Source: a virus. Taken from it: a stretch of DNA of 30,615 nt. The stretch spans positions 1-30,615 of the IMG/VR virus record IMGVR_UViG_3300017934_000140; one strand, 5' to 3'. The translations under genes were made by a program, and so were the position numbers. Positions 1,537 through 29,851 of the stretch are shown piece after piece. The first letter of the stretch is position 1. Each line of letters opens with the position of its first letter. The notes beneath the pieces were generated by a model. That model saw nothing but the letters and a program-made list of their open reading frames with translations. It did no database searches and was not told the origin of the DNA.

Positions 1537-1578
1537 CCCAATCGCTTCCCGGTCGCTGGTCACTGATCGCTGGTCGCT
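1537..1578 (-). repeat. Heptamer array at the 3' end of the acetyltransferase
   Basis: Read on the minus strand it is AGCGACC, AGCGATC, AGTGACC, AGCGACC, followed by decayed units. It overlaps the end of the acetyltransferase gene and supplies its last codons and TGA stop. Confidence 0.75.
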
Positions 1579-2003
1579 AGCCTTTTGCAGTACGGTGTCC
1601 ACACGTCATCCCGCACCCACCCCAGTTTCGTCAGTCGCTTTCCAAACTTATCCGCAATTTCCGGTGGCAGCCACGCGTGCACGTCTTCTAATCCTCGCCG
1701 CGCCGCCTCTCGTTCCGTCACGACGTGCAATCCCAGCAGCCATTCCCACCGTTCTCGCGGCGTGCCCGCCTTAGGGTCCAGCAGCAGGTACGCCTCCGCC
1801 GTCAATCGGAGCAGGGCAGCGCCCACAATTCCCTGCCCTGAGTTGCGAAGGGCCTCTTCCCTCTTCGCCTTCTCCCCGACAAGCACCAATTTCGTCAGAA
1901 ATAACGGGTTGCTCAAATCCGGAAACGCGTACGAAAACCCCTGCGCCGCATGAATCCTCCGCAGTTCCTCCAGGTCGCTCTCCTCGTACGTTCGTACCCG
2001 CAT
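1560..2003 (-). CDS. GNAT-family acetyltransferase-like protein, phage-borne
   Basis: A 147-residue protein resembling the Gcn5-related N-acetyltransferase fold. The N-terminal MRVRTYEESDLEELRRIH is a typical GNAT beta1-alpha1 start; a hydrophobic strand at about residues 60-75 (IVGAALLRLTAEAYLLL) fits the core strands, and the C-terminal part has the usual ...LTKLGWVRDD... strand-turn. A clear Q/R-x-x-G-x-G/A acetyl-CoA loop is not obvious, so activity is uncertain. The start follows the stop of the upstream gene by three bases, which suggests translational coupling. Its C-terminus (LATSDQ) is encoded by a heptamer array. GNAT-like genes of unknown substrate are common near tail genes of short-tailed phages. 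Confidence 0.72.
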   Translation of the reverse strand: MRVRTYEESDLEELRRIHAAQGFSYAFPDLSNPLFLTKLVLVGEKAKREEALRNSGQGIVGAALLRLTAEAYLLLDPKAGTPRERWEWLLGLHVVTEREAARRGLEDVHAWLPPEIADKFGKRLTKLGWVRDDVWTPYCKRLATSDQ

Positions 2004-2006
2004 AAC

Positions 2007-2546
2007 CTAAATCGTCAGCTTCACAATCCGCGCGCCCACCGGCACTCCAAATCCATTTCCCCCGCGGATCAAGCCGTTTGCCGGCGTTCCGCTCCCGCTT
2101 GACGCCAACGGCGCCGGCCCCGACGCGCCACCTCCTGCCACTGCGATCGGCGGCGTCCCGAAAGTCACCGGTGTCGACGGTGCCGATCCCACGTATTGCG
2201 AATATGCTCGCCAGTACAGTGTCTGATTCCCCAGTTGCACGTACAAATTCCGCGAAGATCCCAGGAAATACACGCGCGGCGAGCTGAACGCCGGCGTCAC
2301 ATCCGACTCTGCAAAATAAAACAGCCCGGGCCGCGATGACGACGGGTCCGCAATCGCCAGGTCAAACCATCCATTCGCTGCCTGCACCTTCACCGTCGCA
2401 ATCGGCGCCGGCGCCTGCCCTGGAGTCGACGGGTCGACTCCCGCGCCCTGGCTCGCCGCGTTCACAGCTCGCACAATCTTTACCAGCGTCTCGTACAGAT
2501 ACGCGTCCCTGTCTTTCAAGGGTGCCAGTTGCGCCACCGTCAGCAT
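2007..2546 (-). CDS. Beta-rich phage structural protein
   Basis: A 179-residue protein with AAGGAAG upstream of its ATG. A helical N-terminus (residues 1-33, containing LKDRDAYLYETLVKIVRAVN) is followed by a Pro/Ala linker and a beta-rich body, in which VYFLGSSRNLYVQLGNQTLYWRAYSQYVGS reads like alternating strands of a virion protein; the end is Gly/Ser-rich. No named family is recognised. It lies between a small structural protein and the acetyltransferase, so a tail or decoration role is inferred from context. Confidence 0.68.
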   Translation of the reverse strand: MLTVAQLAPLKDRDAYLYETLVKIVRAVNAASQGAGVDPSTPGQAPAPIATVKVQAANGWFDLAIADPSSSRPGLFYFAESDVTPAFSSPRVYFLGSSRNLYVQLGNQTLYWRAYSQYVGSAPSTPVTFGTPPIAVAGGGASGPAPLASSGSGTPANGLIRGGNGFGVPVGARIVKLTI

Positions 2547-2594
2547 CTTCTTCCTTTAATCCGTCCTTGGGATTTCCAGCGCACGGCGTTTTCA

Positions 2595-2652
2595 AATGAA
2601 CTTGAGGGTGTCCCACCCTTTGCGTCATTTGCAAAGGGTGGGCTCCTCCGAT
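2595..2652. repeat. Family C repeat
   Basis: CTTGAGGGTGTCCCACCCTTTGC and its complement GCAAAGGGTGGGCTC form a long stem. It sits just upstream of the gene at 2546, within the 163-base gap to the next gene. Confidence 0.8.
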
Positions 2653-2709
2653 CTAGCGCTCTGGGCGTTCTTTTCCCCGTTCCCGGGTCTTCGTTGACTT
2701 CATCGCTTT

Positions 2710-3090
2710 CTACGCGCTGATCTTCGCCGTCGCCGACACGTTGTTCGGCAGCGTCGCGATGTAAATGCGCGCAAACCGCGCCACAACGTCCGTAAACTCC
2801 GCTCGGCTTACATTCCCCGTATTCACGGTGGTGATGGCCGAGCCTTCCTGGACGTAGGCAGCGTCTGCATCCGTGTCTGCCGTCTGCAGTTGCACGGAAA
2901 TGCTGCCTGGCGCGCCGCTCCAAATAATTTCCACCGCGCATCGCACCTTTCCCGACGAAAAATTCGGCGCCAGCGCCACCTGCGCGCTCTTGAACGGCGC
3001 AGGAAAAATCGCATCCGTCGACGCGATCACAGCTGCGCTCTCCCCAAACCCCACGGACACCGGTGGCAATGCATTCGAGTAACTTGGCAT
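2710..3090 (-). CDS. Small beta-rich phage protein
   Basis: A 126-residue protein with AGAGGA before its ATG. The sequence alternates hydrophobic and polar residues throughout and ends in AKISA. It has no cysteine-rich or catalytic motif; the pattern KVRCAVEIIW...ISVQLQTAD fits a compact beta-sandwich. It follows the large tail-hub-like protein and probably forms part of the virion, but the family is not recognised. Confidence 0.65.
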   Translation of the reverse strand: MPSYSNALPPVSVGFGESAAVIASTDAIFPAPFKSAQVALAPNFSSGKVRCAVEIIWSGAPGSISVQLQTADTDADAAYVQEGSAITTVNTGNVSRAEFTDVVARFARIYIATLPNNVSATAKISA

Positions 3091-3105
3091 GACATTCCTC
3101 TCTTT

Positions 3106-3169
3106 TGTAGTGGCCGGTCTTTAGACCGGCGTCTTTTGGACTGCGGCAGCCATGCTGCCGCTTTTGCGA
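3106..3169. repeat. Two family D hairpins
   Basis: TGTAGTGGCCGGTCTTTAGACCGGCGTCTTTTGG is followed at once by the related hairpin CTGCGGCAGCCATGCTGCCGC. Confidence 0.7.
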
Positions 3170-3210
3170 CTTAAACCCTTCCTGCCAACTGCGCCCTACG
3201 CAAGGCACAC

Positions 3211-3254
3211 TGTCATCCTGAGCCAGCGTTTTTTGCGGACGAAGGATCTCAACC
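3211..3254. repeat. Family A repeat
   Basis: TGTCATCCTGAGC...GACGAAGGATCTCAACC with a degenerate central stem. It lies between the tail hub and the gene at 3090. Confidence 0.75.
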
Positions 3255-3286
3255 TTAACCAGCTCCACGAACTCTTCTCTTTCTTC

Positions 3287-3352
3287 CTGATCGCCGGTCG
3301 TTGATCGCTGGTCACCCTATTGAAAACTGAATACTGACAACTTGAAACTCCT
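3287..3352 (-). repeat. Double heptamer array after the tail-hub gene
   Basis: On the minus strand, directly after the stop codon: AGTTTCA, AGTTGTC, AGTATTC, AGTTTTC, then a second array AGCGATC, AACGACC, GGCGATC. Two different heptamer types lie side by side. Confidence 0.7.
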
Positions 3353-6301
3353 TCAATTCACCCCTCTTACCGGTGCCCACGGGTCCGTCCTCAACGACGG
3401 CGTAAACCTTTGCAGCCGGAACCACGCCCCCGCCTGGCTTGTGCTCACCTGAAACGCCACCCGTTCCCCCAACACATTGATCGCCAGTTCAAGGTCCTTC
3501 AGCCCGGGCGAACTCAGCGGCAGCGCCTGCTGCGCCGTTGCCGCGCCCGAGGAATCCACATAGCTCGTCAGCCCTAAATTCCCTGCGCCTTCCACATACA
3601 TCGTCAAATAGCTGAACAGCTTCCGGTGCGCTCCCACGCCCAGCACGCTTTCGGCCGTTCGCTCTGGAAGATAATGTGTCGTGTAATAGCTCGCGATCGC
3701 CGCTCCATCATCCGAATACTGCGTGTCATTCAATTGATAGATCTTCCCCGTCGCTCCACCGCCGCCCACGCCCGGGTTCCCTCCGCCAAACGCCGCCACC
3801 GCAGTTCCATTTCCCCGCTCAATCAAGGCGCAGCAATTCGCCGCAATCGCCCACGGCGACCATTTCCGCGCGTTGTCCGTCGCCGCTTTTCTTCCCGTGT
3901 ACGTTATGTTCACCGGCGGCCGCGATGTCAGGTCGCTCACCGAATCCAGGTCGTGATAGTCCAGCATCAGCACGCGATTCGGTGTGGTCGCGCTTCCGAA
4001 CGGCACGCCGACGTAAATCCGCCGCTCTTTCGTGTCCACCGTTACCCACAACGTTTGCGCGTACTGCCAGTTGATCTGGTTCCACGTGGGCTGAATTTCC
4101 TGTGAAATCTTCACCGGCTCTCCGCCGGAAAACAGGTACAGTCCCGTTCGGTGCGCAATCACCACCCAGTCTTCGCCGAATCCCACGCCTCTCACCGAGG
4201 GCGTCCCCACCCTCCGCGAAATCTCCGCAATCGACCACAGCGCCGGCTCGTTCGTCCCGTCGTCCTGCGTCACGTGCAGCGAATGTTCCTTCACGAAGTA
4301 CAGTCGCTCTCTCAACTTGAACGCTGCGCGGATCGCTTGCCCGTTGTTCTCCGCCACGCTCAGCATCCCGTCGATCCCGTCGTAGCTCTCCGGATCCTCC
4401 ACGCGGCTGGCCCGCACCAGCGAAGCGTTCACCGGCTGCGCCGTGGGAAATATCTCGACCGCATCGATATAGAATTGCCCGTTCTGGTTCGGCGTGCCGT
4501 CCGCGTACACCCGCAGCACCAGGTCGCTCGGGATCGTTCCCAGCGGCGCGGTCAATTCCGCGCTGTATTCCACGTAGCTCGTCGTCAACTGGCTCGCCGT
4601 CAACTGCAGTCCCGCCGTATTGATCCCGCTGCTTGCACTGTACAAGTGCACGTGCAGCGTCCCTTGCGCTAGCGTCCCATTTCGCGCGCACCGCGCCCTC
4701 ACCGTGTAATCCGTGTTCGCCTGAATCAGCGGCGCGCCCAGCGCATCCTGCACCGCACCCTGCGTCATCAATCCCCGCGTTGCCGTCGAACCGTTCCCCA
4801 CAATCGAATATGCGGCGCCCCACACCACAAACTTCTCTTCATCCGTTCCGCCCGGCGCAAACGTCGCATCCGGGGTCCATCCCAACGGGTAATGCGGCAG
4901 CGACGGCCCGGTGAACCCGCCGTCAAATCCCAGGTTCACCCAGTTGTCCATCTTGTTCCGTTCGCCCCACCAGAACAGCCGTTCCGCATAGTCGATCACT
5001 CCCGCGCAATCGCCCAGCTCCACCAGCCGGAACAGGTCATCCACGTTCGTCCCCGCCAACAAAATCGCATCCGAAAAATCCACCACCAGCGAAGTCGTCG
5101 TGTTGTCGCTGATCACCATGCTTCCGCTGAACAACGTCCCGCCTCCGCCCACATAGAAAAAGCTTGCCCCGCCCGCTCCCGTGAAGCCCAAAATCCGCGC
5201 CACCACGTTGCTCGGCCCCGTCGGGATGTTCGTCACCACCGCGCGCATTCCCCCGCTCGCCGTCCACGTCGTCGCTGGCCCCGGCTTCGTCAAATATCCT
5301 TGCCGCGTCTTGAACATCACGCACACCTGGTGCGCTCCCGCCGCCACATTGCCTGCCGCAGCGGCTGTTCCTCCGCCTGACGCTGCCAGCCCCCCGCTCG
5401 CCGCGTTGTACGTGAAGTGCGTCGAATCCACCACGCTCGCCACCGCAAATGTGCCGTTATATCCCGCGACTCCCACGCCGCTAATCGTCACCAGTTGCCC
5501 GGCCACAAACCCGTGGGTTGCCGTCGCCTGAATCGTCACTGTCGCCGAAGCCGCGGTTCCCCCGCCCGAATTCGCCAGTCCCGCCGCGCCGACGACATAC
5601 GTAAACTGCGTCGCGCTCAGCACCGATAGCACCGCAAACGTCCCGTTGTACCCGCCGACTCCCACGCCCGCGATGGCCACCGTCTGTCCTGCGCTCAACC
5701 CATGCGCCGCGCTCGTCGTGATGGTCACCAGGTACCCGTTCTCCGTCGCTCCTCCTGGACTGGCTGCAATTGTCACCGCCGCTGGTTGTATTGCACCGCT
5801 CGGACTCGCCGCAATTCCTACGATCACGTTTTCGTCCACCACCGTCGGCCCCGCGCCCGGACCTCCCTGGCTCACGCGATCGAAATTCGTGTCGTCGTAC
5901 TGCCGCGGCAAATCGTTCCCGGTCATGCCGTCGCTGATCGCGAGGTGTTCCCTCCCAAAAAGCGTGCAGGAATTTGCATACGCCCCCGCCGCCAGCCCAC
6001 TCGCGATCTGCGTCAGCGTCCCCGGCGTGCTCTCCTTGTACAAATTTCCCGCGCCATCGAGCGCCATCGTTCTCAGCGTCTCGTTCGGCGTTGTGTACGT
6101 CTTCAGGTAATTCACCGTCGGATTTCCCGCCAGCGGCCCAAACAGCACCTGCAATCCCGGCCGTGTCGTCACGCCGCCGTTGCTGAACACCACGTCCTGG
6201 CAATCCGGCGACACCCCATGCGGCAGATCCGCCGGAGTCATGTCCATCACCAGCCCGCCGAATATCTCAATCGGCGCATCCACTGATCCAATCGTCGACA
6301 T
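3353..6301 (-). CDS. Large tail-hub-like structural protein with tandem E1-FCCH-type repeats
   Basis: A 982-residue protein. Residues 10-50 (IEIFGG... to NGGVTTRPGL) match the start common to short-tailed phage tail-hub or DNA-stabilisation proteins such as P22 gp10 and T7 gp12. Residues about 191-248 and 253-313 are two similar blocks, each with a V(A/T)I(A/S)GVGV(G/A)GYNGTFAV core, the repeat usually labelled E1-FCCH-like. Residues about 455-640 look like a carbohydrate-binding beta-sandwich ending in FYIDAVEIFP. The remainder has propeller-like strands (TGLYLFSGGEPVKIS). It follows the zinc-ribbon gene. The hub assignment is inferred from the N-terminus, size and position. The start has only a weak ribosome site. 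Confidence 0.7.
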   Translation of the reverse strand: MSTIGSVDAPIEIFGGLVMDMTPADLPHGVSPDCQDVVFSNGGVTTRPGLQVLFGPLAGNPTVNYLKTYTTPNETLRTMALDGAGNLYKESTPGTLTQIASGLAAGAYANSCTLFGREHLAISDGMTGNDLPRQYDDTNFDRVSQGGPGAGPTVVDENVIVGIAASPSGAIQPAAVTIAASPGGATENGYLVTITTSAAHGLSAGQTVAIAGVGVGGYNGTFAVLSVLSATQFTYVVGAAGLANSGGGTAASATVTIQATATHGFVAGQLVTISGVGVAGYNGTFAVASVVDSTHFTYNAASGGLAASGGGTAAAAGNVAAGAHQVCVMFKTRQGYLTKPGPATTWTASGGMRAVVTNIPTGPSNVVARILGFTGAGGASFFYVGGGGTLFSGSMVISDNTTTSLVVDFSDAILLAGTNVDDLFRLVELGDCAGVIDYAERLFWWGERNKMDNWVNLGFDGGFTGPSLPHYPLGWTPDATFAPGGTDEEKFVVWGAAYSIVGNGSTATRGLMTQGAVQDALGAPLIQANTDYTVRARCARNGTLAQGTLHVHLYSASSGINTAGLQLTASQLTTSYVEYSAELTAPLGTIPSDLVLRVYADGTPNQNGQFYIDAVEIFPTAQPVNASLVRASRVEDPESYDGIDGMLSVAENNGQAIRAAFKLRERLYFVKEHSLHVTQDDGTNEPALWSIAEISRRVGTPSVRGVGFGEDWVVIAHRTGLYLFSGGEPVKISQEIQPTWNQINWQYAQTLWVTVDTKERRIYVGVPFGSATTPNRVLMLDYHDLDSVSDLTSRPPVNITYTGRKAATDNARKWSPWAIAANCCALIERGNGTAVAAFGGGNPGVGGGGATGKIYQLNDTQYSDDGAAIASYYTTHYLPERTAESVLGVGAHRKLFSYLTMYVEGAGNLGLTSYVDSSGAATAQQALPLSSPGLKDLELAINVLGERVAFQVSTSQAGAWFRLQRFTPSLRTDPWAPVRGVN

Positions 6302-6310: not shown

Positions 6311-6494
6311 TGTAGCGCCGGCATCTTGCCGGCTCCTGGATTTCTCTACCCCTTGTAACGCTGGCTTTCATGCCAGCGCTCTTGGGTTCCCCGCGTTACG
6401 CCGTCCCAAAAATGATCTTGAGGGTGCCCAACCCTAGGTTTGTTCGCGCTCTTTGCGTCTCGTTGCTTTTCACCGGGAAGGGTGGGCTCTTACG
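6311..6494. repeat. Two family D hairpins and a family C element
   Basis: D copies lie at 6311-6339 (GCCGGCATCTTGCCGGC) and 6354-6386 (CGCTGGCTTTCATGCCAGCG). A C element at 6416-6494 has its two arms separated by about 50 bases of loop, including an inner inverted repeat. The 390-base gap holds no credible gene. Confidence 0.75.
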
Positions 6495-6657: not shown

Positions 6658-6690
6658 GGGCGGCGATCACTCGCCGCCCATTTTCTTTCT
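6658..6690 (+). terminator. Strong hairpin at the 3' end of the zinc-ribbon gene
   Basis: GGGCGGCGA, loop TCAC, TCGCCGCCC, then ATTTTCTTTCT. The T-rich tail is on the plus strand, so it would best stop rightward transcription, yet it sits about 10 bases after the stop of a leftward gene. It may act in both directions or protect the leftward mRNA end. Confidence 0.45.
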
Positions 6691-7543: not shown

Positions 7544-7571
7544 CGTAGCTACCGACTACTGACTGCATACT
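7544..7571 (-). repeat. Heptamer array after the tail-fibre gene
   Basis: On the minus strand: AGTATGC, AGTCAGT, AGTCGGT, AGCTACG, starting within 10 bases after the stop codon. Confidence 0.65.
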
Positions 7572-11939: not shown

Positions 11940-11986
11940 CCTGCGTGTCGACGACCAAGGCTACACTCGACTGATCTCACGCTTCC

Positions 11987-12015
11987 CGATCGCTAATCGC
12001 CGGTCGCTGATCGCC
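11987..12015 (-). repeat. Heptamer array
   Basis: On the minus strand: AGCGACC, GGCGATT, AGCGATC and partial units, just after the stop of the gene at 12026. Confidence 0.65.
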
Positions 12016-12376: not shown

Positions 12377-12392
12377 CCCTCTTCTCCTTAAT

Positions 12393-12434
12393 TCGTTACT
12401 TCTTTGCTTCGTTGCCTCTTTGCCTCGTTGCTTC
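12393..12434 (-). repeat. Octamer array after the adaptor gene
   Basis: On the minus strand: GAAGCAAC, GAGGCAAA, GAGGCAAC, GAAGCAAA, GAAGTAAC. It lies about 10 bases beyond the stop of the adaptor gene and runs close to the ribosome site of the next gene. Confidence 0.7.
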
Positions 12435-13705: not shown

Positions 13706-13819
13706 TTTTCGCCTCTTGTCATGAACTTGCTACTTTTCAAGTCACACCGTTAGCTGTTACTCTGCATTTGACAGGGGGCCGTGCCGGACAAAGTATCCGC
13801 ACAGCCTGCACCGAATTTA

Positions 13820-13843: not shown

Positions 13844-13882
13844 TGTTGCTTCCTTACTTCGTTGCCTCGTTGCTTCTCGTTA
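13844..13882 (-). repeat. Octamer array
   Basis: On the minus strand: GAGAAGCAAC, GAGGCAAC, GAAGTAAG, GAAGCAAC, right at the end of the gene at 13880. Confidence 0.65.
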
Positions 13883-14731: not shown

Positions 14732-14759
14732 CTCCACTCCCGACTGCTAACTACTGACT
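14732..14759 (-). repeat. Heptamer array after the capsid gene
   Basis: On the minus strand: AGTCAGT, AGTTAGC, AGTCGGG, AGTGGAG, starting about six bases beyond the capsid stop codon. Confidence 0.65.
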
Positions 14760-14765
14760 GTCTCC

Positions 14766-16512: not shown

Positions 16513-16553
16513 TTCTCTGTGCCTCTGTGTTCTCTGTGGTGAATTCTTTCTTC
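16513..16553 (-). repeat. CACAGAG array after the scaffold gene
   Basis: On the minus strand it reads CACCACAGAG, AACACAGAG, GCACAGAG, just downstream of the scaffold stop. A related copy lies at 26019-26063. Confidence 0.65.
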
Positions 16554-17933: not shown

Positions 17934-17960
17934 CCTGGTCGCTAATTGCCGGTCGTTGAT
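17934..17960 (-). repeat. Heptamer array after the portal gene
   Basis: On the minus strand: AACGACC, GGCAATT, AGCGACC. It lies between the portal stop and the scaffold start. Confidence 0.65.
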
Positions 17961-17975
17961 TACCTTCAACTCAGG

Positions 17976-20692: not shown

Positions 20693-20748
20693 GCTTGAGG
20701 GTGCCCCACCCTTTCTGCGCATTTTGCAGAAAGGGTGGGCTCTTACGA
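20693..20748. repeat. Family C repeat upstream of portal
   Basis: GAGGGTGCCCCACCCTTTCTGC and GCAGAAAGGGTGGGCTCTTACG form a stem of more than 12 bp. Confidence 0.8.
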
Positions 20749-20798
20749 TCTGACGCCTCACACTCTCTTCTCTTAACTCTTGGGCTTTTCTTCCCCGC

Positions 20799-20834
20799 TC
20801 ATTGCTTCCTTACTTCCTTGCCTCTTCTTCTCTC
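20799..20834 (-). repeat. Octamer array
   Basis: On the minus strand: GAGGCAAG, GAAGTAAG, GAAGCAAT, at the very end of the small coiled-coil gene. Confidence 0.6.
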
Positions 20835-21040: not shown

Positions 21041-21059
21041 TAAATTGTCTCCACGCCCC

Positions 21060-21241
21060 GGGTGCCCCACACGCCGGTTTTGCGTGTGGGGTCTGGGGTT
21101 TATCCCTAGGAGCCGCCCCTCCCCTGAGCTCGTAGACCCCTGGCTTTAGCCAGGGGCGCGGAGCGCGGGGGAGCACGGCATTTATGCCGTGCGAAACGGC
21201 CGCGTTCTCTAAAATGAGGAATGGGCTTTAGCCCATTCCTC
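21060..21241. repeat. Four hairpins in tandem, three with TTTA loops
   Basis: A C-like hairpin at 21060-21105, then perfect palindromes at 21137-21156 (CCCCTGGCTTTAGCCAGGGG), 21173-21192 (GCACGGCATTTATGCCGTGC) and 21216-21241 (26 bp, core GGGCTTTAGCCC). The region is non-coding. Confidence 0.8.
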
Positions 21242-21246: not shown

Positions 21247-21285
21247 AAACTTAGAACATTGAACTTACAACTAAGAACTTCTCAG
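21247..21285 (-). repeat. Heptamer array
   Basis: On the minus strand: AAGTTCT, TAGTTGT, AAGTTCA, ATGTTCT, AAGTTTC, running from the stop of the exported protein. Confidence 0.7.
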
Positions 21286-22145
21286 TTCGCCGGTGCGGCC
21301 AGCTTGTAGCCGACGATGTGCGCATGCACCGCGCCTGCCGTTGCCGCGGCCGTGGTGCAAAACGCAACCGGCACTGCCGCCGCCGCGTTAAACACGTAGT
21401 TCGGTACCAGCGTCGAACTGTCTGTCGTCGTGCCCGCCGTCAGTGTCGTGTTCGCCGCGCCAAATTCTGTACCCGACGTGAACCCCAGTGACCATCCGCC
21501 CGTGCATCCCGTAATTGTTGTCGTCACGCGTGCCGTCGCCGATGCCACCACCGAGCGCGTGGGAATCTTGACGCTTCCCAAGCTCGTGGACTGTCCGCCC
21601 GTACTCAGCGTCACTGTTCCGGGATCGATCTGCCAAAACACTAGTCCGCCGCCATTTAGGCTGGCGTCGTTGATCGCTTCCTGAATTCCCTGGTCGCCGG
21701 AAATGACCTGGCTGGTGCTGAAGCTCGCGGAATGCAAATTCGCGAACGTGGCCGTGATCGCCGCGCACGGCACGTTTCCCGATCCGCTCGGCGCTGCCAC
21801 CAGCGAATAGGACGTCGGCGTCACCGTTTCCACCAACGAACTCGACTGCGCATCAATCGCCGCTGGCGCATACACTCCGTTCGCCGGCGCCAGCGGCTGA
21901 ATCACGCGCCCATCCGGCAACGCAAACTGTGCCGGGCACACCGTGATCGTCTGCGATCCGGTCGCCGTGTTGCCGTTCAGCACATACGCGCCCCACACGC
22001 TGTACTTCGTGGAATCGAACACTCCCGCCACGCGCGAAAATTGTGCCGCAGCGCTCTGCGCCTTCGTCTTGTCCGGCGCCATCAGCCAGCACGCCAACCC
22101 AACCACAAACAAAACCACCGCCACCACTGCAAGACTTTTTTTCAT
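21282..22145 (-). CDS. Exported beta-rich protein between terminase and portal
   Basis: A 287-residue protein with AAGGAGAGG upstream. Residues 1-30 form a clear Sec signal peptide (MKKSLAVVAVVLFVVGLACW, cleavage near KAQ). The mature part is Ala/Thr/Ser-rich, with strands such as SQTITVCPAQFALPDGRVIQ and TARVTTTITGCTGGWSLGFT and four widely spaced cysteines that could form disulfides after export. The whole mature sequence looks like a surface or fibre protein. Its position between packaging genes is not standard for a phage. It could be an exported receptor-binding or adhesion protein; no family is recognised. Confidence 0.7.
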   Translation of the reverse strand: MKKSLAVVAVVLFVVGLACWLMAPDKTKAQSAAAQFSRVAGVFDSTKYSVWGAYVLNGNTATGSQTITVCPAQFALPDGRVIQPLAPANGVYAPAAIDAQSSSLVETVTPTSYSLVAAPSGSGNVPCAAITATFANLHSASFSTSQVISGDQGIQEAINDASLNGGGLVFWQIDPGTVTLSTGGQSTSLGSVKIPTRSVVASATARVTTTITGCTGGWSLGFTSGTEFGAANTTLTAGTTTDSSTLVPNYVFNAAAAVPVAFCTTAAATAGAVHAHIVGYKLAAPAN

Positions 22146-22208
22146 GTCATCCCTCTCCTTGAAATTGTTCCCCTGAAACCCTTTGTCCCTGGCTACTTAA
22201 AAGCGCCT

Positions 22209-22249
22209 GTCATCCTGAGGCGATCCGAATAGGATCGCCGAAGGACCTC
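22209..22249. repeat. Family A repeat
   Basis: TGTCATCCTGAG, inverted repeat GCGATCC...GGATCGC, then GAAGGACCTCG. It lies between the terminase and exported-protein genes. Confidence 0.8.
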
Positions 22250-22332
22250 GACCCCCGCGTCTTGCCCCAATCCTTCTGTTCGCTCCGTCTTGCGTCCTGG
22301 TCGCCGGTCGCCCTAGAGAGATGGCCCCCTTT

Positions 22333-22371
22333 ATTGCTTCCTTACCTCTTTCCTTCTTTGCTTCCTCCTTC
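22333..22371 (-). repeat. Octamer array after the terminase gene
   Basis: On the minus strand: GAAGCAAA, GAAGGAAA, GAGGTAAG, GAAGCAAT, within a few bases of the terminase stop. Confidence 0.65.
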
Positions 22372-24073
22372 ACCAATTCCATCTCCGCTTCCCCAACCGG
22401 TGCGGCCCCAACTGCTTCCTCGCCTCCGCCTCCAGCCTCTGCCGATGAATCGCCCGCGAAGTCGGATCCTCCGCGCTGATCTGCCGCTCGATCTGCACCG
22501 CCACCGGTATTCCCGGCACAAATCGCGCTCCACTCGTTAAACCATTAGGGGGCGGAGCCTGCCCCGCCCCGGGCCCGCCTTCCGTAATCTTGGCGAAGGA
22601 GGGTGCCCCAAGACCGGCGTATCGCACGCCGGAAACCAATCCATATCTCGCCGCGTCCGCCGGATCATCCCCCTCTACCTTCCGGACGTCCTCCACGCGC
22701 CGCTCATCTCTCACCAGCAACGGCAGGCCCTCAATCAACTCCCGGCAATTCTCCGTAATCACCCACTCGTCGTTTTCCAGCATCTGGTACATCAACTGCC
22801 ATCCGCCCACACGGTCGTCATCCGCGGGCACCGGCCGCGGTAATCCGTTCTGCGCCAGCACCTCGCCCAACTGTTCTGCAATCGACGCCTCGCTCGTCCG
22901 GTGCGCGAACGCGTCCGGCGACAGAACCACTTCCTCGATTCGCTCGCCCGCACTCCGTTCCGCGATCGCCTGGGCCAGCATTCGCGGCGAAAGCTCGTTC
23001 TTCACAAACTCGCGGTATGTGACAACCCGACAAGGGTCGTCATCCTGAGCGCATCTGTCGCGCGAAGGATCCCTCTGCTCCCCACGAGTCCCGGACCACG
23101 ACTCACGAATCACGCCATCCGGCACCGCACAATGCCAATACACCGCGCTGTTATGATGGAATCCCCAATCGATCGAAATCCACCTCGGCCACCACGCCTG
23201 CATCCCGATCTCGTCCGCCCGGGCCGTGTGTCGTCCAATTTCAAACACATTAAAATACTGCCCCGCGAAGACGCTCCAATCCCCTTCCAGAAACGCTTTC
23301 CGCAACCGTTCCGGCAAAGCCTCCAGCGTCTTCCGGTAATTCATGTCCTCCGCGTAAATCGGGTTGTCCTCAATCCGCGCCTCAATGAAGTCGTAATCGT
23401 TCGCATCGTACTGTTCCGGTCGGTCATACCCCGGCGGCGGCACCTTATCCACCCACAGCGCCTTCACCCACGCGTGCCCGATATTCCCCGGGTTCGTCGC
23501 CCCCGCCATGCACGGTTTCGACCCCGCAATCGGGCAACGGTTCCGCGAAGTTAGAAACTGCCATTGCTTTAACGTGAAATGTGTCAGCTCATCGATCCCG
23601 ATGAACAAAAACTCCGCGCCCTGGTACTGGTAAACGTCATTCTCATTCCGGCAGTACCCGAACCGGATCGTCGAACCGTTCCTTAGCGTCACCAGGTGCT
23701 TTGCTTCGTTGTAGCTGTGGTATTCCGTGTGCGGCACGTGCCGCCGGAACTGCGCAATCAGCGAACTTTCCAATTCAGGGTAAGTCCTTCTCAAAAGCAG
23801 TGAATCGCTGCCTGCATGCTTCCTGGCTTGGATGAACGCTTCCTCAAGCAGCGCCCTTGTCTTCCCTGGCCCCGCCGCCCCGCCGAATAGTCGGTATGTT
23901 TTTCCCGAGTCGTGGAACTGCTTCTGCCGCGGATACGCTGTGTAGGATTTCCTCGGCTCGCCCTGTCTAGCTCTCTCTTGGCGCTCCGCTTTTATACGGT
24001 TCGCTTCTCCCACCGCCCTGAAGGTATGCTCTCGCGGCCGTCTTATTATTTCGCCTTTGCACGGTTTGCCCAC
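22370..24073 (-). CDS. terL: Terminase large subunit
   Basis: A 567-residue ATPase-nuclease that packages DNA into the procapsid. Walker A is GGAAGPGKT (residues 64-72), Walker B is FLFIGIDE (about 155-162), and the coupling motif is ATNPGN (192-197). The RNase-H-like nuclease starts at ISIDWGF (299-305, Asp302), has a second acidic strand EVVLSPDAF, and ends with GDDPADAARYGL. Residues about 327-347 (GTRGEQRDPSRDRCAQDDD) are a translated family A palindrome inside the nuclease domain, and the Gly/Pro-rich stretch near the C-terminus also holds repeat debris. The GTG at 24073 is the only start in frame before an upstream stop; its ribosome site is poor. No adjacent small subunit is certain. 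Confidence 0.93.
   Translation of the reverse strand: MGKPCKGEIIRRPREHTFRAVGEANRIKAERQERARQGEPRKSYTAYPRQKQFHDSGKTYRLFGGAAGPGKTRALLEEAFIQARKHAGSDSLLLRRTYPELESSLIAQFRRHVPHTEYHSYNEAKHLVTLRNGSTIRFGYCRNENDVYQYQGAEFLFIGIDELTHFTLKQWQFLTSRNRCPIAGSKPCMAGATNPGNIGHAWVKALWVDKVPPPGYDRPEQYDANDYDFIEARIEDNPIYAEDMNYRKTLEALPERLRKAFLEGDWSVFAGQYFNVFEIGRHTARADEIGMQAWWPRWISIDWGFHHNSAVYWHCAVPDGVIRESWSGTRGEQRDPSRDRCAQDDDPCRVVTYREFVKNELSPRMLAQAIAERSAGERIEEVVLSPDAFAHRTSEASIAEQLGEVLAQNGLPRPVPADDDRVGGWQLMYQMLENDEWVITENCRELIEGLPLLVRDERRVEDVRKVEGDDPADAARYGLVSGVRYAGLGAPSFAKITEGGPGAGQAPPPNGLTSGARFVPGIPVAVQIERQISAEDPTSRAIHRQRLEAEARKQLGPHRLGKRRWNW
23039..23071. repeat. Family A palindrome inside terminase
   Basis: CGTCATCCTGAGCGCATCTG...GCGCGAAGGATCC. 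It falls in frame between the first nuclease strand and the next helix, where a surface loop would be expected. Confidence 0.85.
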
Positions 24074-24120: not shown

Positions 24121-24320
24121 CTGTAGCGCCGGCATCCTGCCGGCTTTTTCTTCCCGCTTTTCGATTTTCCAATTTCGATTTTCGACTTTGCACTCTCGGG
24201 TGCCCCACCCTTGGTTTACAAGGGTGGGCTCTTCCGATCCAAGGTCACTCACTCTCTTCTCTTCGCCCTTGATTAGTTTCTTCTTCCGGGTGCTGCACCC
24301 TCGATTTTGAGGGTGTGCGT
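24121..24320. repeat. Repeats upstream of terminase
   Basis: D at 24121-24146 (GCCGGCATCCTGCCGGC), a heptamer array at 24157-24194 (minus strand AGTCGAA, AATCGAA, ATTGGAA, AATCGAA), C at 24196-24238 and a C variant at 24288-24320. An open frame across this stretch is repeat translation. Confidence 0.7.
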
Positions 24321-24370: not shown

Positions 24371-24402
24371 CGAGTTTCGAGTTTCGTTCTTCGAGTTTCG
24401 AC
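24371..24402 (-). repeat. Heptamer array
   Basis: CGAGTTT repeated (CGAGTTT, CGAGTTT, CGTTCTT, CGAGTTT on the plus strand), about 14 bases after the end of the small membrane gene. Confidence 0.7.
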
Positions 24403-24415: not shown

Positions 24416-24580
24416 TCACGCTCCCCGCAGTTTCTTCCCCACAAAGAACGCGGCAATCCCGCCAATCAACGCCGCCGCGGCTCCCCAGTGATGAAGGCTC
24501 AACACCACGCCCAGCACTACCGCTCCCACTCCCGCGATCTGCGCCACTTCCCCAATGAAAACCACCTTTGCACTCGCCAT
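24416..24580 (-). CDS. Small two-segment membrane protein
   Basis: A 54-residue protein; the ATG at 24580 has GGAGG five bases upstream, so the 14 extra residues of the longer frame are not used. Two hydrophobic segments (about residues 10-27, VAQIAGVGAVVLGVVLSL, and about 31-47, AAAALIGGIAAFFVG) end in a basic KKLRGA. Size and topology resemble small holins or phage membrane-leader proteins. It lies ten bases from the end of the lysine-rich gene, so the two are likely co-translated. Confidence 0.65.
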   Translation of the reverse strand: MASAKVVFIGEVAQIAGVGAVVLGVVLSLHHWGAAAALIGGIAAFFVGKKLRGA

Positions 24581-24590
24581 TTCTTCCTCC

Positions 24591-25262
24591 TCAGTCCCGT
24601 GTGGCCCGTGGCGCGCTGTCAATCACCGGCCCTGTCTCCGCCATCAACGCGCGCGCATTCTTCCCGTACCGCATCTCCAGCAACCGCTCTAACAAACTCT
24701 TCGACGATCTCTCATCCCTTTCCCGCAGCAAAATTTCCGTCAGCCGGATCAGGTCGATGTTCACGTTCACCGCATCCACAAAACCCACTCCGTCTTCCGG
24801 CAATGGCACACCTCCGTCCAGCTGGGCCCGCTCGTCCCACAAACTCTCTATCGGCGGCTTTCCACCTTTTCCCTTAGCCTCCCCCTTCGCCGCCTTACTC
24901 TCGTTTCTTTGCTTCACAGCTGGTTTTCTACGGTTAGCATGCTTCCGATTCTTCGCCTTCTGCTTCTTCGTTGTCGGTTTTTTCTTAGGAGTGCGCTTGG
25001 CCTTCTTCGCCTTCGGCTCAGCCGAGTCAGCGTCCGTCTTGTGGTCCGCGGCGCGTGCGTCGGAGGCGTGCGCACTCTCGCCAGCGGTTAATCCACGTAC
25101 GGCGTCAGACCCCGCCAGCTCTCTCCGCGAGTTGCAACTCGCCCGGCGCATCTGCCGGCGCACTCCCCGGCGCGTCCGGGAACCCGCTACGACGCGCACC
25201 TCTCCGGAGAACGTATCCATCCCCCGGAAAGCTCTCATCGTGATCGTTTGTGGCACCGCCAT
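24591..25262 (-). CDS. Lysine-rich DNA-binding-like protein, possible small terminase
   Basis: A 223-residue protein, with GGAGGAAGGC before the ATG at 25262. Residues about 75-135 are a Lys/Ala tract (KAKKAKRTPKKKPTTKKQKA), like histone H1- or AlgP-type tails that bind DNA without sequence preference. The C-terminal 80 residues (GKGGKPPIESLWDERAQLDG, LIRLTEILLRERDERSSKSL) form a separate helical domain. It lies two genes upstream of terminase, the usual place of the small subunit. That role is plausible but unproven; a chromatin-like condensing role is the alternative. Confidence 0.6.
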   Translation of the reverse strand: MAVPQTITMRAFRGMDTFSGEVRVVAGSRTRRGVRRQMRRASCNSRRELAGSDAVRGLTAGESAHASDARAADHKTDADSAEPKAKKAKRTPKKKPTTKKQKAKNRKHANRRKPAVKQRNESKAAKGEAKGKGGKPPIESLWDERAQLDGGVPLPEDGVGFVDAVNVNIDLIRLTEILLRERDERSSKSLLERLLEMRYGKNARALMAETGPVIDSAPRATRD

Positions 25263-25307
25263 GCCTTCCTCCGCTGACTGCGTCTTGGCTCCGCCCTGAA
25301 CCGCGCG

Positions 25308-25367
25308 TGTCATCCCGACCGGAGAGACTGCGCTTCTTGCTGTCTCGGAGTGGAGGGATCGTGGCAC
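25308..25367. repeat. Family B repeat
   Basis: CATCCCGACCGGAGAGACTGCG...GGAGTGGAGGGATCGTGGC with a partly decayed stem, just upstream of the lysine-rich gene. Confidence 0.75.
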
Positions 25368-25718: not shown

Positions 25719-26063
25719 GTCATCCTGAGCGCGCCTTTTGCCTGCCTCCCGCAGGCAGGCGCGAAGGATCTCACCCCTTGCGTCTTGTCTCCCACCTGAA
25801 CCCTTGCTTTCATCGGGACCGGAGAGCCGCGCTGTTTGCGGCTCGGAGCGCGGTATGTGCGCCCCGGGTGCTTCACCGGGATAAAGGGATCGTGGCTTGA
25901 CCGCTGCGTCTTGCTCCACGTCCGACCGATCACCGTCATTCCGAACCCGCGTCCCTTGCGAGTGAGGGATCCTCTTCGATCCCAGCCCAGCCCCAGGCTG
26001 TCATCTTCTTCCCCGCGACTCTCCGTGCCCTCTGTGGATCCTCTGTGCTCTCTGTGGTGAAAT
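25719..26063. repeat. Repeat cluster: A, nested B, A variant, CACAGAG array
   Basis: A at 25719-25772 with an inner CCTGCCTCCCGCAGGCAGG hairpin; B at 25810-25900 split by about 35 bases that include CCCCGGGTGCTTCACCGGG; A variant at 25936-25972; CTCTGTG-type array at 26019-26063. Open frames over this 440-base stretch are repeat translations. Confidence 0.75.
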
Positions 26064-26108: not shown

Positions 26109-26519
26109 CTACTGCACTGTCACGCTAAAGCTGACAGGTGAACCCGGAGACACCGTGGCAGTAGCAGTGGATGCGTTTGGGTTTGATTCCGTCCCGTCCG
26201 CCATCTGCGCCGTCGCCGCGAACGTGTGCACGCCCGCCTTCAACGTCACTAATCCGCTCGTTCCCGTTATCCCCGTCATCGCCGTGCTCGCCCCACTGGG
26301 CGCGGGGATCGCAAACAATTTTACCGGCGCGGCGCCGCCCGTGATGTCATAAATATTGAACTGCTTCACGCATCCGCTCGTCACACTGGAGCTGCATGCG
26401 TTGTCCACCGTGAAGTCGTAATTCAACGTCACCGCAACCGTGTGCTGCGACGACCCCGCCCACAACAGGATCGGCGCCAGCCAACCCACGATTCCCCATA
26501 TCACTCTTTTCCGCATCAT
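26109..26519 (-). CDS. Exported Ig-like protein, first gene after the late promoter
   Basis: A 136-residue protein, started at the ATG-ATG pair at 26519 with AGAGGG just upstream; a longer frame runs through leader DNA. Residues 1-24 form a Sec signal peptide (MMRKRVIWGIVGWLAPILLW, then AGSSQ). The mature part is a single Ig- or fn3-like beta domain (VAVTLNYDFTVDNACSSSVT, LVTLKAGVHTFAATAQMADG) with two cysteines that can pair after export. It resembles the exported C-terminal domains of the tail fibre in composition. Its role is unknown; an adhesion or fibre-associated part is possible. Confidence 0.65.
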   Translation of the reverse strand: MMRKRVIWGIVGWLAPILLWAGSSQHTVAVTLNYDFTVDNACSSSVTSGCVKQFNIYDITGGAAPVKLFAIPAPSGASTAMTGITGTSGLVTLKAGVHTFAATAQMADGTESNPNASTATATVSPGSPVSFSVTVQ

Positions 26520-26614
26520 TCCCTCTTCACTCCGTGCTCTCCGTGTCGGAGCTTGCCCGACCGGTCGGGTGGCCAATTCTTCTCCATTGCGCGTCTTGTG
26601 CGCGATGAATCCAT
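26516..26614 (-). CDS. Possible 32-residue leader peptide
   Basis: An ATG at 26614, preceded by GGGAGG (only two bases away, too close for ideal use), opens a 32-codon frame (MDSSRTRRAMEKNWPPDRSG and onward), whose TGA overlaps the ATG-ATG start of the exported protein. Basic and hydrophilic, without a membrane segment. It could couple translation of the next gene; it may also be chance. Confidence 0.3.
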   Translation of the reverse strand: MDSSRTRRAMEKNWPPDRSGKLRHGEHGVKRE

Positions 26615-26619
26615 CTCCT

Positions 26620-26656
26620 CCCAAAAACAAAAAGCCCCGGCTCATCGCCAGGGCTT
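26620..26656 (-). terminator. Intrinsic terminator in the leader of the late block
   Basis: On the minus strand: AAGCCC-T-GGC-GATGA-GCC-G-GGGCTT, then TTTGTTTTT. Six plus three base pairs with one mismatch, loop of five, and a T-rich tail: a canonical terminator only about 17 bases after the predicted start of transcription. Confidence 0.78.
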
Positions 26657-27481: not shown

Positions 27482-27510
27482 GATATCTGTTATCTGATAT
27501 CTGATTACTG
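27482..27510. repeat. Heptamer array upstream of the MOSC gene
   Basis: On the minus strand: CAGTAAT, CAGATAT, CAGATAA, CAGATAT. It lies about 20 bases left of the MOSC promoter. Confidence 0.65.
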
Positions 27511-27541: not shown

Positions 27542-28378
27542 GTGCCTTCACCGACACCGCTCCCCAAACTTGCCAACATCCGCCTCCACCCCATCAAGTC
27601 TCTCGACCCTGTCTCCGTCACCGAAGCCCGCATCTCTCCCTCCGGTGGACTCGCTCTTGACCGCGCCTGGGCTCTGTATTCCGTAGACGGCCAGTGGGTT
27701 AACGGCAAGCGCACTCCCGCGGTCCATCTCATCCGCGCCAACTATTCGCCCGACCTCCGTTCCGTCACCCTTTCCGTCCCCGCCGATCGCCGCAAAATCC
27801 CGCCGCGCACGTTCGCTTTCCCCGCCGAACACGAAGAAGCCTCCGAGTGGTTCAGCGTGTTCTTCGAGCAACAGATAATCGTTCGCTATTCTCCCGGGGG
27901 CTTCCCCGACGACACCATTGCCAACGGCCCCACCATCGTTTCCGCAGCCTCGCTCCAGGCCGTCGCCGAATGGTTTACGGGTCTCACCGTCGACGACGTT
28001 CGCCTTCGCTTTCGCACCACTCTCGAAATCAACGTCGACCCGGAAAGGGTCGCGCTTGGAGAGAAGTTGCCGCCCTTCTGGGAAGACCAGCTCTTCGGCG
28101 AAAACGAACGCAGCGTCGTTCGCTTTACCATCGGCGAAGTCGCCTTCGAGGGCAGCAATCCCTGCGCCCGCTGCCCCGTTCCTCCCCGCGATCCTTTCAC
28201 CGGTCTGAATCTCGACGGCTTCCAAAAGCATTTCACTCGCCGGCGCGAAACCACTCTCCCCGCATGGTCCCCCCGCCCTCGCTTCGACCACTTCTACCGC
28301 TTCGCCACCAACACCCGCGTCCCCTCCTCCCAAGCCGGCCGCCTCCTCCGCCTCGCCGACCCCCTCACCCTTTCCTAA
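27542..28378 (+). CDS. MOSC-domain protein
   Basis: A 278-residue protein, GTG start. Residues about 8-110 form the MOSC N-terminal beta-barrel (ANIRLHPIKSLDPVSVTEA, GLALDRAWALYSVDGQWVN). The MOSC domain follows, with NPCARCPVPPRDPFTG (about 212-227) containing the cysteine expected to bind or transfer sulfur in molybdenum cofactor-related proteins. This family includes molybdenum cofactor sulfurase C-terminal domains and the mARC and YiiM/YcbX types; the length and two-domain form suit YcbX-like proteins. The enzyme role is inferred from the family. It is a host gene transcribed away from the phage block, likely from a leaderless mRNA. Confidence 0.88.
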   Translation: MPSPTPLPKLANIRLHPIKSLDPVSVTEARISPSGGLALDRAWALYSVDGQWVNGKRTPAVHLIRANYSPDLRSVTLSVPADRRKIPPRTFAFPAEHEEASEWFSVFFEQQIIVRYSPGGFPDDTIANGPTIVSAASLQAVAEWFTGLTVDDVRLRFRTTLEINVDPERVALGEKLPPFWEDQLFGENERSVVRFTIGEVAFEGSNPCARCPVPPRDPFTGLNLDGFQKHFTRRRETTLPAWSPRPRFDHFYRFATNTRVPSSQAGRLLRLADPLTLS

Positions 28379-28381
28379 CCC

Positions 28382-28437
28382 TGTCATCCCGACCGGAGGC
28401 GCGCGCCGCTTCCGCGCCGCAGTGGAGGGATCGTGGC
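28382..28437. repeat. Family B repeat after the MOSC gene
   Basis: TGTCATCCCGACCGGAGGCGCGCG...CGCGCCGCAGTGGAGGGATCGTGGC, beginning a few bases beyond the stop codon. Confidence 0.8.
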
Positions 28438-28504
28438 TACACTCTATGTAAGCCTTACTCGATGGAACCGCCGCCATCTTGGCTTTGCTTGGTTTCTCCG
28501 GTTG

Positions 28505-28699
28505 TGTAGCGCCGGCATCCCGCCGGCTCTTGGGGTTTCTTTATGTGTTCTCCTGATTTTGTAGTGGCCGACCTTCAGGTCGGTTCTTGGGTTCCTTTTC
28601 TAAGGCCACGTCCCGATTGATCTTGAGGGTGCCCCACCCTAGGTTTATTCGCGTTTTCTGCGTCCCGGTGTTCTTTACCGGGAAGGGTGGGTTCTTACG
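28505..28699. repeat. Two family D hairpins and a family C element
   Basis: D at 28505-28534 (GCCGGCATCCCGCCGGC) and 28560-28592 (GGCCGACCTTCAGGTCGG); C at 28620-28699 with a 45-base loop that closely resembles the element at 6416-6494. No gene lies between 28379 and 28879. Confidence 0.75.
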
Positions 28700-28840
28700 A
28701 TCAAACGCCACCGACATTCTTCTCTGCCCTCTTGAGTTGCCGGGTGCCCCGGGTTCGCTGTTCAGAACCTGGGTCTTGGGTTTCTCTTTCACTCTTTCAC
28801 TTCCTCCCTCTGACTGCTCACCGCTCAACCCTTTCTGCCT

Positions 28841-28870
28841 CCTGATATCTGATCGCTGATATCTGATATC
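28841..28870 (-). repeat. Heptamer array
   Basis: On the minus strand: CAGATAT, CAGCGAT, CAGATAT, CAGG, about ten bases after the stop of the gene at 28880. Confidence 0.65.
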
Positions 28871-28879
28871 CCTATTGCC

Positions 28880-29278
28880 TCACTCCTCCCCATTAAAATA
28901 CTTTCTCGGCGGAAACAATCCTCGCCTCAACAACTCCTCCCCGCATCTCTTCCGAATCTCCTCCGACCAGTTCACCCAGCTCCGCTCGCTCAATCCCAAA
29001 AAATGCCGCGCCATCTCGTACGGCGCCAACCCCAAATAGTACAAACGGAACATCACCATCCGCGATGCCCGTTCCGGCCCTTGCAATCCCGCCTGGCCCG
29101 CCAACGCAAAATCCGCCACCCAATCTCTCAATTTCGGCCGCAGCTCCGGACGCCACATGTACTTCGCGTCCTGCTGCCAATCCAGCGCCCCCACGCCGCG
29201 CTTCGTCTCCAATATCTCCCGCGCCCCGCGGTACACTTCCCAGCACACATCAAACGCCATTTCCGCCTTCACGCTCAT
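28880..29278 (-). CDS. Helix-turn-helix-type phage regulator, putative
   Basis: A 132-residue protein; the ATG at 29278 has GGAGGGG upstream, and the longer frame is a translated family B repeat. It is helical throughout. Residues about 75-125 (LYYLGLAPYEMARHFLGLSE, then RSWVNWSEEIRKRCG) look like a sigma-region-4-like or small-terminase-like helix-turn-helix. It ends RGLFPPRKYFNGEE. It pairs with the next wing-helix gene on the same strand. DNA binding is inferred; no named family is recognised. Confidence 0.62.
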   Translation of the reverse strand: MSVKAEMAFDVCWEVYRGAREILETKRGVGALDWQQDAKYMWRPELRPKLRDWVADFALAGQAGLQGPERASRMVMFRLYYLGLAPYEMARHFLGLSERSWVNWSEEIRKRCGEELLRRGLFPPRKYFNGEE

Positions 29279-29312
29279 CGTCCCCTCCGCCACTTCTCCG
29301 CCCACCAAAAAA

Positions 29313-29372
29313 CTGTCATCCCGACCGGAGAGCCGCGTCTTTTGCGGCTCGCAGCGGAGGGATCGTGGCTTG
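29313..29372. repeat. Family B repeat
   Basis: TGTCATCCCGACCGGAGAGCCGCG...GCGGCTCGCAGCGGAGGGATCGTGGC, between the two helix-turn-helix genes. Confidence 0.8.
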
Positions 29373-29419
29373 ACCACTGCGTCTCGAACTCATTCTTTTC
29401 TCATTCGCTAGCCACTTCC

Positions 29420-29713
29420 TCATCCCCTCACCTGGTACTCCCACACTCTTTCCCTCGTATTGGTCCGCAGCGCCTCATCGCTCGCCCGTCTGCGCTTCTC
29501 CACCTCAAACGCTCCATGCTCTGCTTTCCGCAGATGCCGCAACTGCGCCGAAATGCTTGTCTCCGCAAACTTCGTCTTCCGCGCCAATTCTTCCAGCGTC
29601 ATCCACGAGTCGTACTGCGCCGCCATCAACATCACTTGCCGCACAATCTCCAGTTGCGTCGGCATGTGTTCTCGCCTGCCCTCCCTCCGTTTTTCCCTCC
29701 GTCCCCCGCTCAT
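29420..29713 (-). CDS. Winged-helix DNA-binding protein
   Basis: A 97-residue protein with GGAGGAAAG directly before its ATG at 29713; an internal ATG at 29665 with GGAGGG further up is an alternative that would drop a very basic leader (SGGRREKRREGRREH). Residues about 17-95 form a winged helix: MLMAAQYDSWMTLEELARKT, recognition helix ETSISAQLRHLRKAEHG, and a wing ending VWEYQVRG. It probably binds DNA as a regulator or replication accessory factor. Confidence 0.7.
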   Translation of the reverse strand: MSGGRREKRREGRREHMPTQLEIVRQVMLMAAQYDSWMTLEELARKTKFAETSISAQLRHLRKAEHGAFEVEKRRRASDEALRTNTRERVWEYQVRG

Positions 29714-29730
29714 CTTTCCTCCAACCGTTT

Positions 29731-29759
29731 TGGAGTGCGGCAGCCCGGCTGCCGCTTTT
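29731..29759. repeat. Family D-type hairpin
   Basis: TTGGAGTGCGGCAGCCCGGCTGCCGCTTTTG. The same type occurs at 3138 and 16101. Confidence 0.65.
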
Positions 29760-29817
29760 GACTAACTCATTCGCGTCACCCAACCTGCCCGCCGGCTAAA
29801 AGCCTCCCCATCTCCGT

Positions 29818-29851
29818 TTCATCGCTTCGTTACTTCTTTACTTCGTTACTT
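29818..29851 (-). repeat. Octamer array
   Basis: On the minus strand: GAAGTAAC, GAAGTAAA, GAAGTAAC, GAAGCGAT. It provides the stop codon of the acidic frame ending at 29830. Confidence 0.7.

Follow-up and report, generated by a model that had tools for sequence, protein, structure and literature searches.

What do the short tandem arrays that stand at the gene ends of a phage have in common, when the repeated unit changes from one gene to the next? The question is raised by the virus record IMGVR_UViG_3300017934_000140 of IMG/VR (30,615 bases, analysed in full and called the window hereafter), a virus record of its own in which all clear genes run leftward. Arrays of degenerate units, such as AGCGACC or AGTCAGT, had been predicted from its letters at the 3' ends of most genes. 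Bacterial heptamer arrays have been on record for decades, and we know of no accepted role for them. In this phage, in its relatives and in chromosomes of Acidobacteriota, the constant properties of the arrays are their place at the stop codon, their mRNA-sense orientation and their G-rich/C-poor strand; the period is 7, 8 or 9. The best explanation overall, to which we assign a probability of about 0.5, would be that they are 3'-end elements of the host lineage with a role at transcript 3' ends.

The gene-end arrays of the window are real. At each of the 15 places listed by the original prediction there is a degenerate array of 7- or 8-mers that reads in the sense direction and either closely follows the stop codon or spans it, and in several cases the stop codon lies within the array; the distance of the arrays to the gene end, which had been given as 0-20 bases, is indeed short but extends from 0 to 43 nt. 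Every gene end was compared, from -15 to +60 nt of the stop and for periods 7-9, with 400 dinucleotide shuffles. Arrays at p<0.05 were found at 14 of the 29 window gene ends, versus 4 of 29 gene starts and 8 of 123 gene-body windows, so that the excess over shuffled sequence on which the original prediction depended is present, but at about half of the gene ends and not at most of them. Tested singly, 12 of the 15 listed arrays reach p values of about 0.05 or less; those at 11987 (p=0.10), 16513 (p=0.105, mixed period 8/9) and 17934 (p=0.16) are too degenerate to pass alone and show the same units. Tandem Repeats Finder (TRF) recovers 7-mer and 8-mer arrays at most of these places. Over the 50 nt that follow window stops, bases match at lag 7 at a rate of 0.396, versus 0.26-0.28 elsewhere in spacers; the rates for lags 14 and 8 in this stretch are 0.349 and 0.321 (versus 0.27 elsewhere for lag 8). 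Four window arrays start less than 15 nt after the stop, where uniform placement predicts 1.0.

The same place is occupied by other units in related phages, studied as a set of 35 non-redundant viral contigs that excludes the window. Their stops are followed, over the first 60 nt, by a raised lag-7 signal (0.323, 0.306, 0.293), with lags 14 and 21 raised likewise; across these contigs lag 7 is not raised before starts or inside genes, and lag 8 is not raised overall. Within 15 nt after the stop, 31 arrays start, versus 8.2 under uniform placement in their spacers. The orthologues of the gene at 12443-13165 bear an array directly after the stop in 11 of 14 cases (the detector gives 12, but its call in L087 is a plain palindrome), an excess that rests on about five independent array lineages. 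At this gene end the window has GAAGCAAC 8-mers, L019 has AGTAATC 7-mers, L043 and L047 have 9-mers like GGAAGTAAA, and seven phages or prophages have AGTTTTC 7-mers. The ends of the major head protein genes, whose products are 85-94% identical, carry AGTCAGT, AGTGGCC, GGTGACT or AGTAATC 7-mers, or GGAAGTAAA 9-mers. In five phages (L003, L007, L010, L011, L013) a GTGTCATCCCGAGCGAGCGAAGCGAGTCGAGGGATC element follows this gene, where others bear arrays. The prediction that the place is shared and the units differ thus holds for more than 30 related phages and for Acidobacteriota chromosomes, including a short period; a strict period of 7-8 as the conserved property had to be abandoned, since 9-mers occupy the same gene ends. 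Near-identical phages differ in array length by whole units (L082 from L008 by 28 nt, L021 from L043 by 7 nt). The idea that arrays turn over faster than other spacers was rejected: at 90-97% upstream identity, unrelated and alignable spacers stand at 42:6 without arrays and 21:24 with arrays. Array-free spacers change equally fast, and unit turnover is therefore a general property of these spacers.

The chromosomal arrays were studied in stretches of seven Acidobacteriota genomes (G001-G004, G013, G029 and G055) with one common gene caller and array detector; a second set from G002 and the set from G003 were selected because they contain one given unit, which biases their counts but not the positions. 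After stops, G002, G003, G013, G029 and G055 show a clear lag-7 enrichment, G001 a weak one and G004 almost none. The density of arrays per kb, pooled over these hosts, is 1.36 for convergent, 1.23 for tandem and 0.32 for divergent spacers, and 0.034 for gene bodies. Per kb, tandem spacers thus hold about 36 times as many arrays as gene bodies, and divergent (5'-5') spacers hold few, so that the equal frequency in gene bodies and at 5' ends that would have refuted the original prediction was not observed. The peak at the stop recurs as well: arrays starting less than 15 nt after it number 45 in G055 (12.4 under uniform placement), 25 in G013 (9.4) and 16 in G029 (6.3). The 8.4 Mb genome G055 also contains 1420 matches to AGTCAGTAGTCAGTAGTCAG with at most two mismatches, versus 0-41 in 59 other Acidobacteriota genomes, and some of its contig ends fall inside long heptamer arrays.

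The orientation of the arrays is as constant as their place. Arrays close to the stop are rich in G and poor in C when read as mRNA (G 0.37 and C 0.14 in G055; G 0.29 and C 0.12 in the related phages) and the composition of distal arrays is reversed in G055 (C 0.32, G 0.17). The ratio of YAG to CTR in stop-proximal arrays is 48:6 in G055 and 20:4 in phages, and 15:50 in the distal arrays of G055. G003 uses another unit, GTGACTC, with the same excess of G over C; array-free host gene ends show no G/C skew. The orientation rule was seen for genes on both chromosome strands (38/38) and therefore follows the gene and not replication; together, orientation and skew tie the arrays to the direction of transcription. 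This argues against simple insertion tolerance, which would yield neither the orientation nor the peak at the stop. Rho utilization (rut) sites were considered and rejected, as stop-proximal arrays are C-poor and G-rich, which is the opposite of the well-established rut composition.

In some hosts the arrays are one arm of a larger structure. Roughly every second stop-proximal array is followed downstream by a reverse-complement arm (20/34 in G013, 14/23 in G029, 34/74 in G055), versus 2/32, 0/22 and 6/72 in the respective mismatched controls. Examples of these paired arrays form stems of 20-30 bp, and the 3' ends of the hosts that have them are far more folded than shuffles, the 5' ends not. 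Three viral contigs without homologues of the window proteins (L211, L213 and L214) bear paired inverted heptamer arrays directly after stops, which shows that viruses are able to carry the paired form. The arrays of the window are single arms without folding, with an inverted pair in none of the three testable ones. A GC-rich hairpin followed by a U-tract, as in intrinsic (Rho-independent) terminators, is not formed by the unfolded window arrays, and only 6 of 62 paired host hairpins have a T-run; no array matched a known RNA family in Rfam. Two further candidates were discarded: paired arrays as marks of operon ends distinct from single arrays, for which no clear difference by spacer type or length appeared, and an association of the arrays with canonical terminators in the direction of the genes of the window, where terminator-like matches near spacers lie mostly on the opposite strand. 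GC-rich hairpins in window spacers (13819-13840, 6658-6679, 29737-29755 and 24128-24144) are preceded by an A-run on the coding strand, which makes them look like terminators when read on the other strand; counted over both strands, there are 28 terminator-like sites in the second half of the window, versus 13.7 expected.

Phages and hosts share units. Prophage L086 has a unit, GTGACTSGTGACTSGTGA, with 82 occurrences in its own host G003 and 0-5 in the six other genomes. The ATCAGAT/ATCAGCG unit of the window (read as ATATCAG/CGATCAG) occurs 28 times in G001, 35 in G002 and 5 in G029, and not at all in G003, G004, G013 or G055; its backward-read control patterns have no occurrences. A k-mer tally outside prophages agrees with the host match for the window, L083 and L086. 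The terminase large subunit of the window (22370-24073, leftward; Pfam Terminase_3, phrog_979) is 61-77% identical to proteins of Acidobacteriota metagenome-assembled genomes (Candidatus Acidiferrum, fen_331, gp2 and others), where it matches prophages, and has relatives at 61-77% identity on dozens of soil viral contigs. Since the window unit is frequent in G001 and G002, in line with these terminase relatives, the host of the window phage is probably close to Ca. Acidiferrum or fen_331.

Repeats comparable to these arrays are known from other bacteria. On the coding strand of Xanthomonas (GGGAATC) and Nostoc (GGGGA[CT]T), G-rich heptamers are found 0-50 bp from the stop and sometimes span it; they are rare between divergent genes, are known also as inverted pairs and vary in unit count among relatives (Rehm 2015, PMC4692102). 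Xanthomonas RNA-seq shows transcripts starting or stopping more often at heptamer repeats that form G-quadruplexes than at control repeats (PMC4692102). The arrays described here have the same place, within 0-50 bp after the stop on the coding strand, but those genomes each have one G-tract unit, proposed to form G-quadruplexes, whereas the window has many units and none of AGCGACC, AGTCAGT, GAAGCAAC, CAGATAT and AAGTTCT contains a G-tract of at least three. In Geobacter metallireducens, paired tandem octamers and heptamers are described as predicted global regulator binding sites of classes 1-3 and supposed to be IHF/HU sites (Aklujkar 2009, PMC2700814). These too are tandem units of 7-8 bp, mostly in inverted pairs at variable distance, and the available part of that paper, which reads them as possible IHF/HU binding sites, states no 3'-end or hairpin role (PMC2700814). 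The window arrays differ from them in being unpaired; inverted pairs were seen in G013, G029 and G055. Two of the Geobacter consensus units occur in tandem in the window as reverse complements, namely as GAAGCAAC (12392-12434 and 13845-13876) and CACGGAGA (26019-26056), and class 3 (MTYCTGA) only resembles the TCAG heptamers of the window (PMC2700814). The TAACTGA direct repeats of Beggiatoaceae and cyanobacteria consist of one unit and lie mostly just upstream of start codons (MacGregor 2015, PMC4679880). Like the arrays studied here they are heptamer direct repeats, and some units of phages and hosts are similar to their reverse complement, TCAGTTA, but they are a single unit on the start-codon side, whereas the present arrays follow stops and have many units.

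The cyanobacterial short tandemly repeated repetitive (STRR) sequences of Calothrix and others, which the original prediction regarded as the nearest comparison, are tandem degenerate intergenic heptamers in many copies per genome, as in the phages and hosts studied here; the likeness is one of description, the window also has octamers, and STRR heptamers are not known to be biased towards stop codons. The heptamers of Xanthomonas and Nostoc and the paired sites of G. metallireducens are closer. Repetitive extragenic palindromic sequences and bacterial interspersed mosaic elements (REP/BIME) of enterobacteria and others lie at 3' ends and between convergent genes and form RNA hairpins. They may be compared with the paired host arrays, but they are not tandem arrays of 7-8 bp units, and the window arrays, which lack a complementary arm, are not extragenic palindromes of 20-40 bp. 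Heptamers near stops (PMC4692102) and paired arrays with overlapping units (PMC2700814) are thus already known; the literature searched contained no report of such arrays in Acidobacteriota or in phages, of a unit-independent rule, or of phages sharing the units of their hosts.

The arrays would then be sense-oriented repeat elements of the 3' untranslated region that belong to the Acidobacteriota lineage of the host and are carried at phage gene ends. The complete element, as seen in several Acidobacteriota chromosomes, consists of a G-rich/C-poor array of 7- or 8-mers at the stop or within about 15 nt of it, followed by a reverse-complement array, and forms a hairpin without U-tract. Its most likely function would be exerted in the RNA, by forming or protecting transcript 3' ends as a U-less terminator or as a REP-like barrier to exonucleases, and between convergent genes it would work in both directions. 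Because of the position, the orientation, the absence from promoter regions and the strong folding, such a role is likely for the paired arrays; for the single arms of phages it is unproven. The window phage would hold single, non-folding arms of the 5' type, which we infer to have been acquired by recombination with host intergenic DNA or inherited from prophage ancestors, and which may have spread since the place just after a stop tolerates or favours them. Several observations weigh against this explanation. The paired host hairpins differ from intrinsic terminators both in lacking a U-tract (at least five T in the first 8 nt in 6/62) and in having long loops (median 55). The arrays of the window and of G001, G002 and G003 are mostly single and unfolded, so in this state they cannot act as hairpins. 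G004 has few arrays despite its related prophage, and the host match of L087 with G004 is weak, the k-mer tally disagreeing. Finally, arrays within one phage share units no more than arrays of different phages do (k-mer sharing in 1/25 versus 118/921), and the notion of one unit family per phage was rejected. The single arms of the window might be half-elements inherited from the DNA of the host or mutational products at ribosome-free transcribed DNA, or they might work in some other way. A broader formulation is offered only tentatively: any G-rich/C-poor sense array of 7-9 nt units at the stop, single or as an arm of a U-less hairpin, would serve transcript ending or protection across Acidobacteriota and their phages, and phages would adopt the version of the host lineage, which would become a host label.

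Mutation alone might also account for the arrays. Arrays of 7-9 bp units would arise by slippage or template switching in the ribosome-free transcribed DNA right after stops (for instance in R-loops, with a G-rich sense strand) and persist by tolerance, and inverted arms would result from fold-back copying. The peak exactly at the stop, the G-rich sense strand, the whole-unit length differences between near-identical phages and the single, unfolded state of phage arrays all agree with this, and polymerase slippage has been suggested before as the origin of heptamers (PMC4692102). Nevertheless, it leaves unexplained that few unit families recur across gene ends and genomes, that units are specific to host lineages and that paired arms are frequent, and we regard it as possible rather than probable. 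Repeated units of 7-8 nt could alternatively be binding sites in RNA or DNA, for IHF/HU as proposed for Geobacter classes 1-3, or for RNA binders of the S1, Csp or CsrA type as proposed for TAACTGA. The identity of GAAGCAAC with the reverse complement of class 1 (GTTGCTYN) and of CACGGAGA with that of class 2 (TCTCCGTS) of Geobacter (PMC2700814), and the RNA binders put forward for heptamers by MacGregor (PMC4679880) speak for this. Yet the units at one gene end differ completely between phages, which no single sequence-specific protein would fit, and neither source, as far as available, contains a binding test (PMC2700814, PMC4679880); binding seems unlikely.

Less probable still are fail-safe stops, which units of a length not divisible by three would provide in all three frames if they contained TAG, TGA or TAA. 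All frames are indeed hit in 26/45 arrays of G055 and 11/25 of G013, the mean number of frames hit exceeds that of shuffles (1.98 versus 1.48 in G055, 1.64 versus 1.25 in G013), and several stops sit inside an array. But period-9 arrays occupy the same gene ends, many units lack a stop triplet (AGCGATC, AGTTTTC, AGTGGCC), and all frames are hit in only 5/31 phage arrays and 1/4 window arrays, which makes this explanation very improbable. As for chance, or an artefact of low-complexity spacers or gene calls, the failure of some weak window arrays to reach significance singly would agree with it; it can be considered refuted, because lag 7 stands out from every other lag behind the stops of several independent genomes and phages and because reversed-pattern controls are near zero.

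The individual arrays of the window all lie on the minus strand. Heptamers of the AGCGACC/AGCGATC type cross the stop of the gene at 1560-2003 (1551..1578; TRF score 42, p=0.007). After the gene for a virion structural or fibre-like protein (3353-6301, leftward), AGTATTC/AGTTTTC and then AGCGATC 7-mers occupy 3287..3350 (p=0.010). AGTCAGT 7-mers follow both the gene at 7578-11474 (7549..7565; p=0.015) and that of the major head protein (14766-16022, leftward, phrog_14242), whose orthologues have other arrays (14737..14760; p=0.010). The AGCGACC-type array after 12026-12376 (11986..12015; TRF) is not significant singly, and similar but weak units follow 17976-20009 (17934..17961). GAAGCAAC octamers stand after 12443-13165 (12392..12434; TRF score 65, p=0.002) and after 13880-14503 (13845..13876; TRF, p=0.002), in the latter case followed by a GC-rich hairpin; GAAGYAAC-type octamers cross the stop of 20810-21070 (20798..20822; p=0.047). 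The CACAGAG-type array with period 8/9 follows 16556-17917 (16513..16538; TRF), and a CACAGAG/CACGGAGA array follows 26109-26645 (26019..26056; TRF). AAGTTCT 7-mers and then a GC-rich hairpin come after 21282-22145 (21247..21280; p=0.017), and GAAGCAAA octamers after the terminase gene (22334..22364; TRF, p=0.050), with similar octamers in the same place in L004, L024 and L022/L027. CGAAACT 7-mers (24371..24401; TRF, p=0.007) follow the small gene at 24416-24622, a 68-aa open reading frame with many orthologues that adjoins the terminase gene and overlaps the end of the gene at 24591-25367, start sites being uncertain there. CAGATAT 7-mers absent from the original prediction follow 27548-28477 (27482..27505; TRF score 41, p=0.002), the ATCAGAT/ATCAGCG 7-mers frequent in G001 and G002 follow 28880-29377 (28842..28870; TRF score 44, p=0.002), and GAAGTAAC octamers cross the stop of 29830-30615 (29825..29852; TRF score 49, p=0.007).

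The non-coding share of the window is about 28%, which we consider high for a phage, and its spacers hold other repeated elements. An element GAGATCCTTC...CAGGATGACA occurs after AGCGACC-type arrays in the same orientation (1400-1560, 3270-3330, 11900-11990 and 22200-22330), with GAGATCC seven times in the direction of the gene and never against it, and GGATGACA eight times to none. A palindromic element CCCACCCTT...AAGGGTGGGGCACCCTCAAG recurs in one orientation, for example at 6421-6435, 14520-14534, 16400-16513, 20700-20790 and 28626-28640; strand counts in window spacers are 6 to 0 for its GGGTGGGGCACCC and 3 to 0 for GCCGGCGCTACA.

As the place (the stop), the strand (mRNA sense, G-rich) and, in some lineages, the form (hairpin arms) hold across unit families, the question of what heptamer arrays do narrows to transcript 3' ends, where it can be tested directly by 3'-end mapping. 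The results point to a poorly known gene-end element common to phage and host. If phages carry the version of their host lineage, gene-end arrays could help to assign hosts to uncultured soil phages, a use that two specific patterns support so far.

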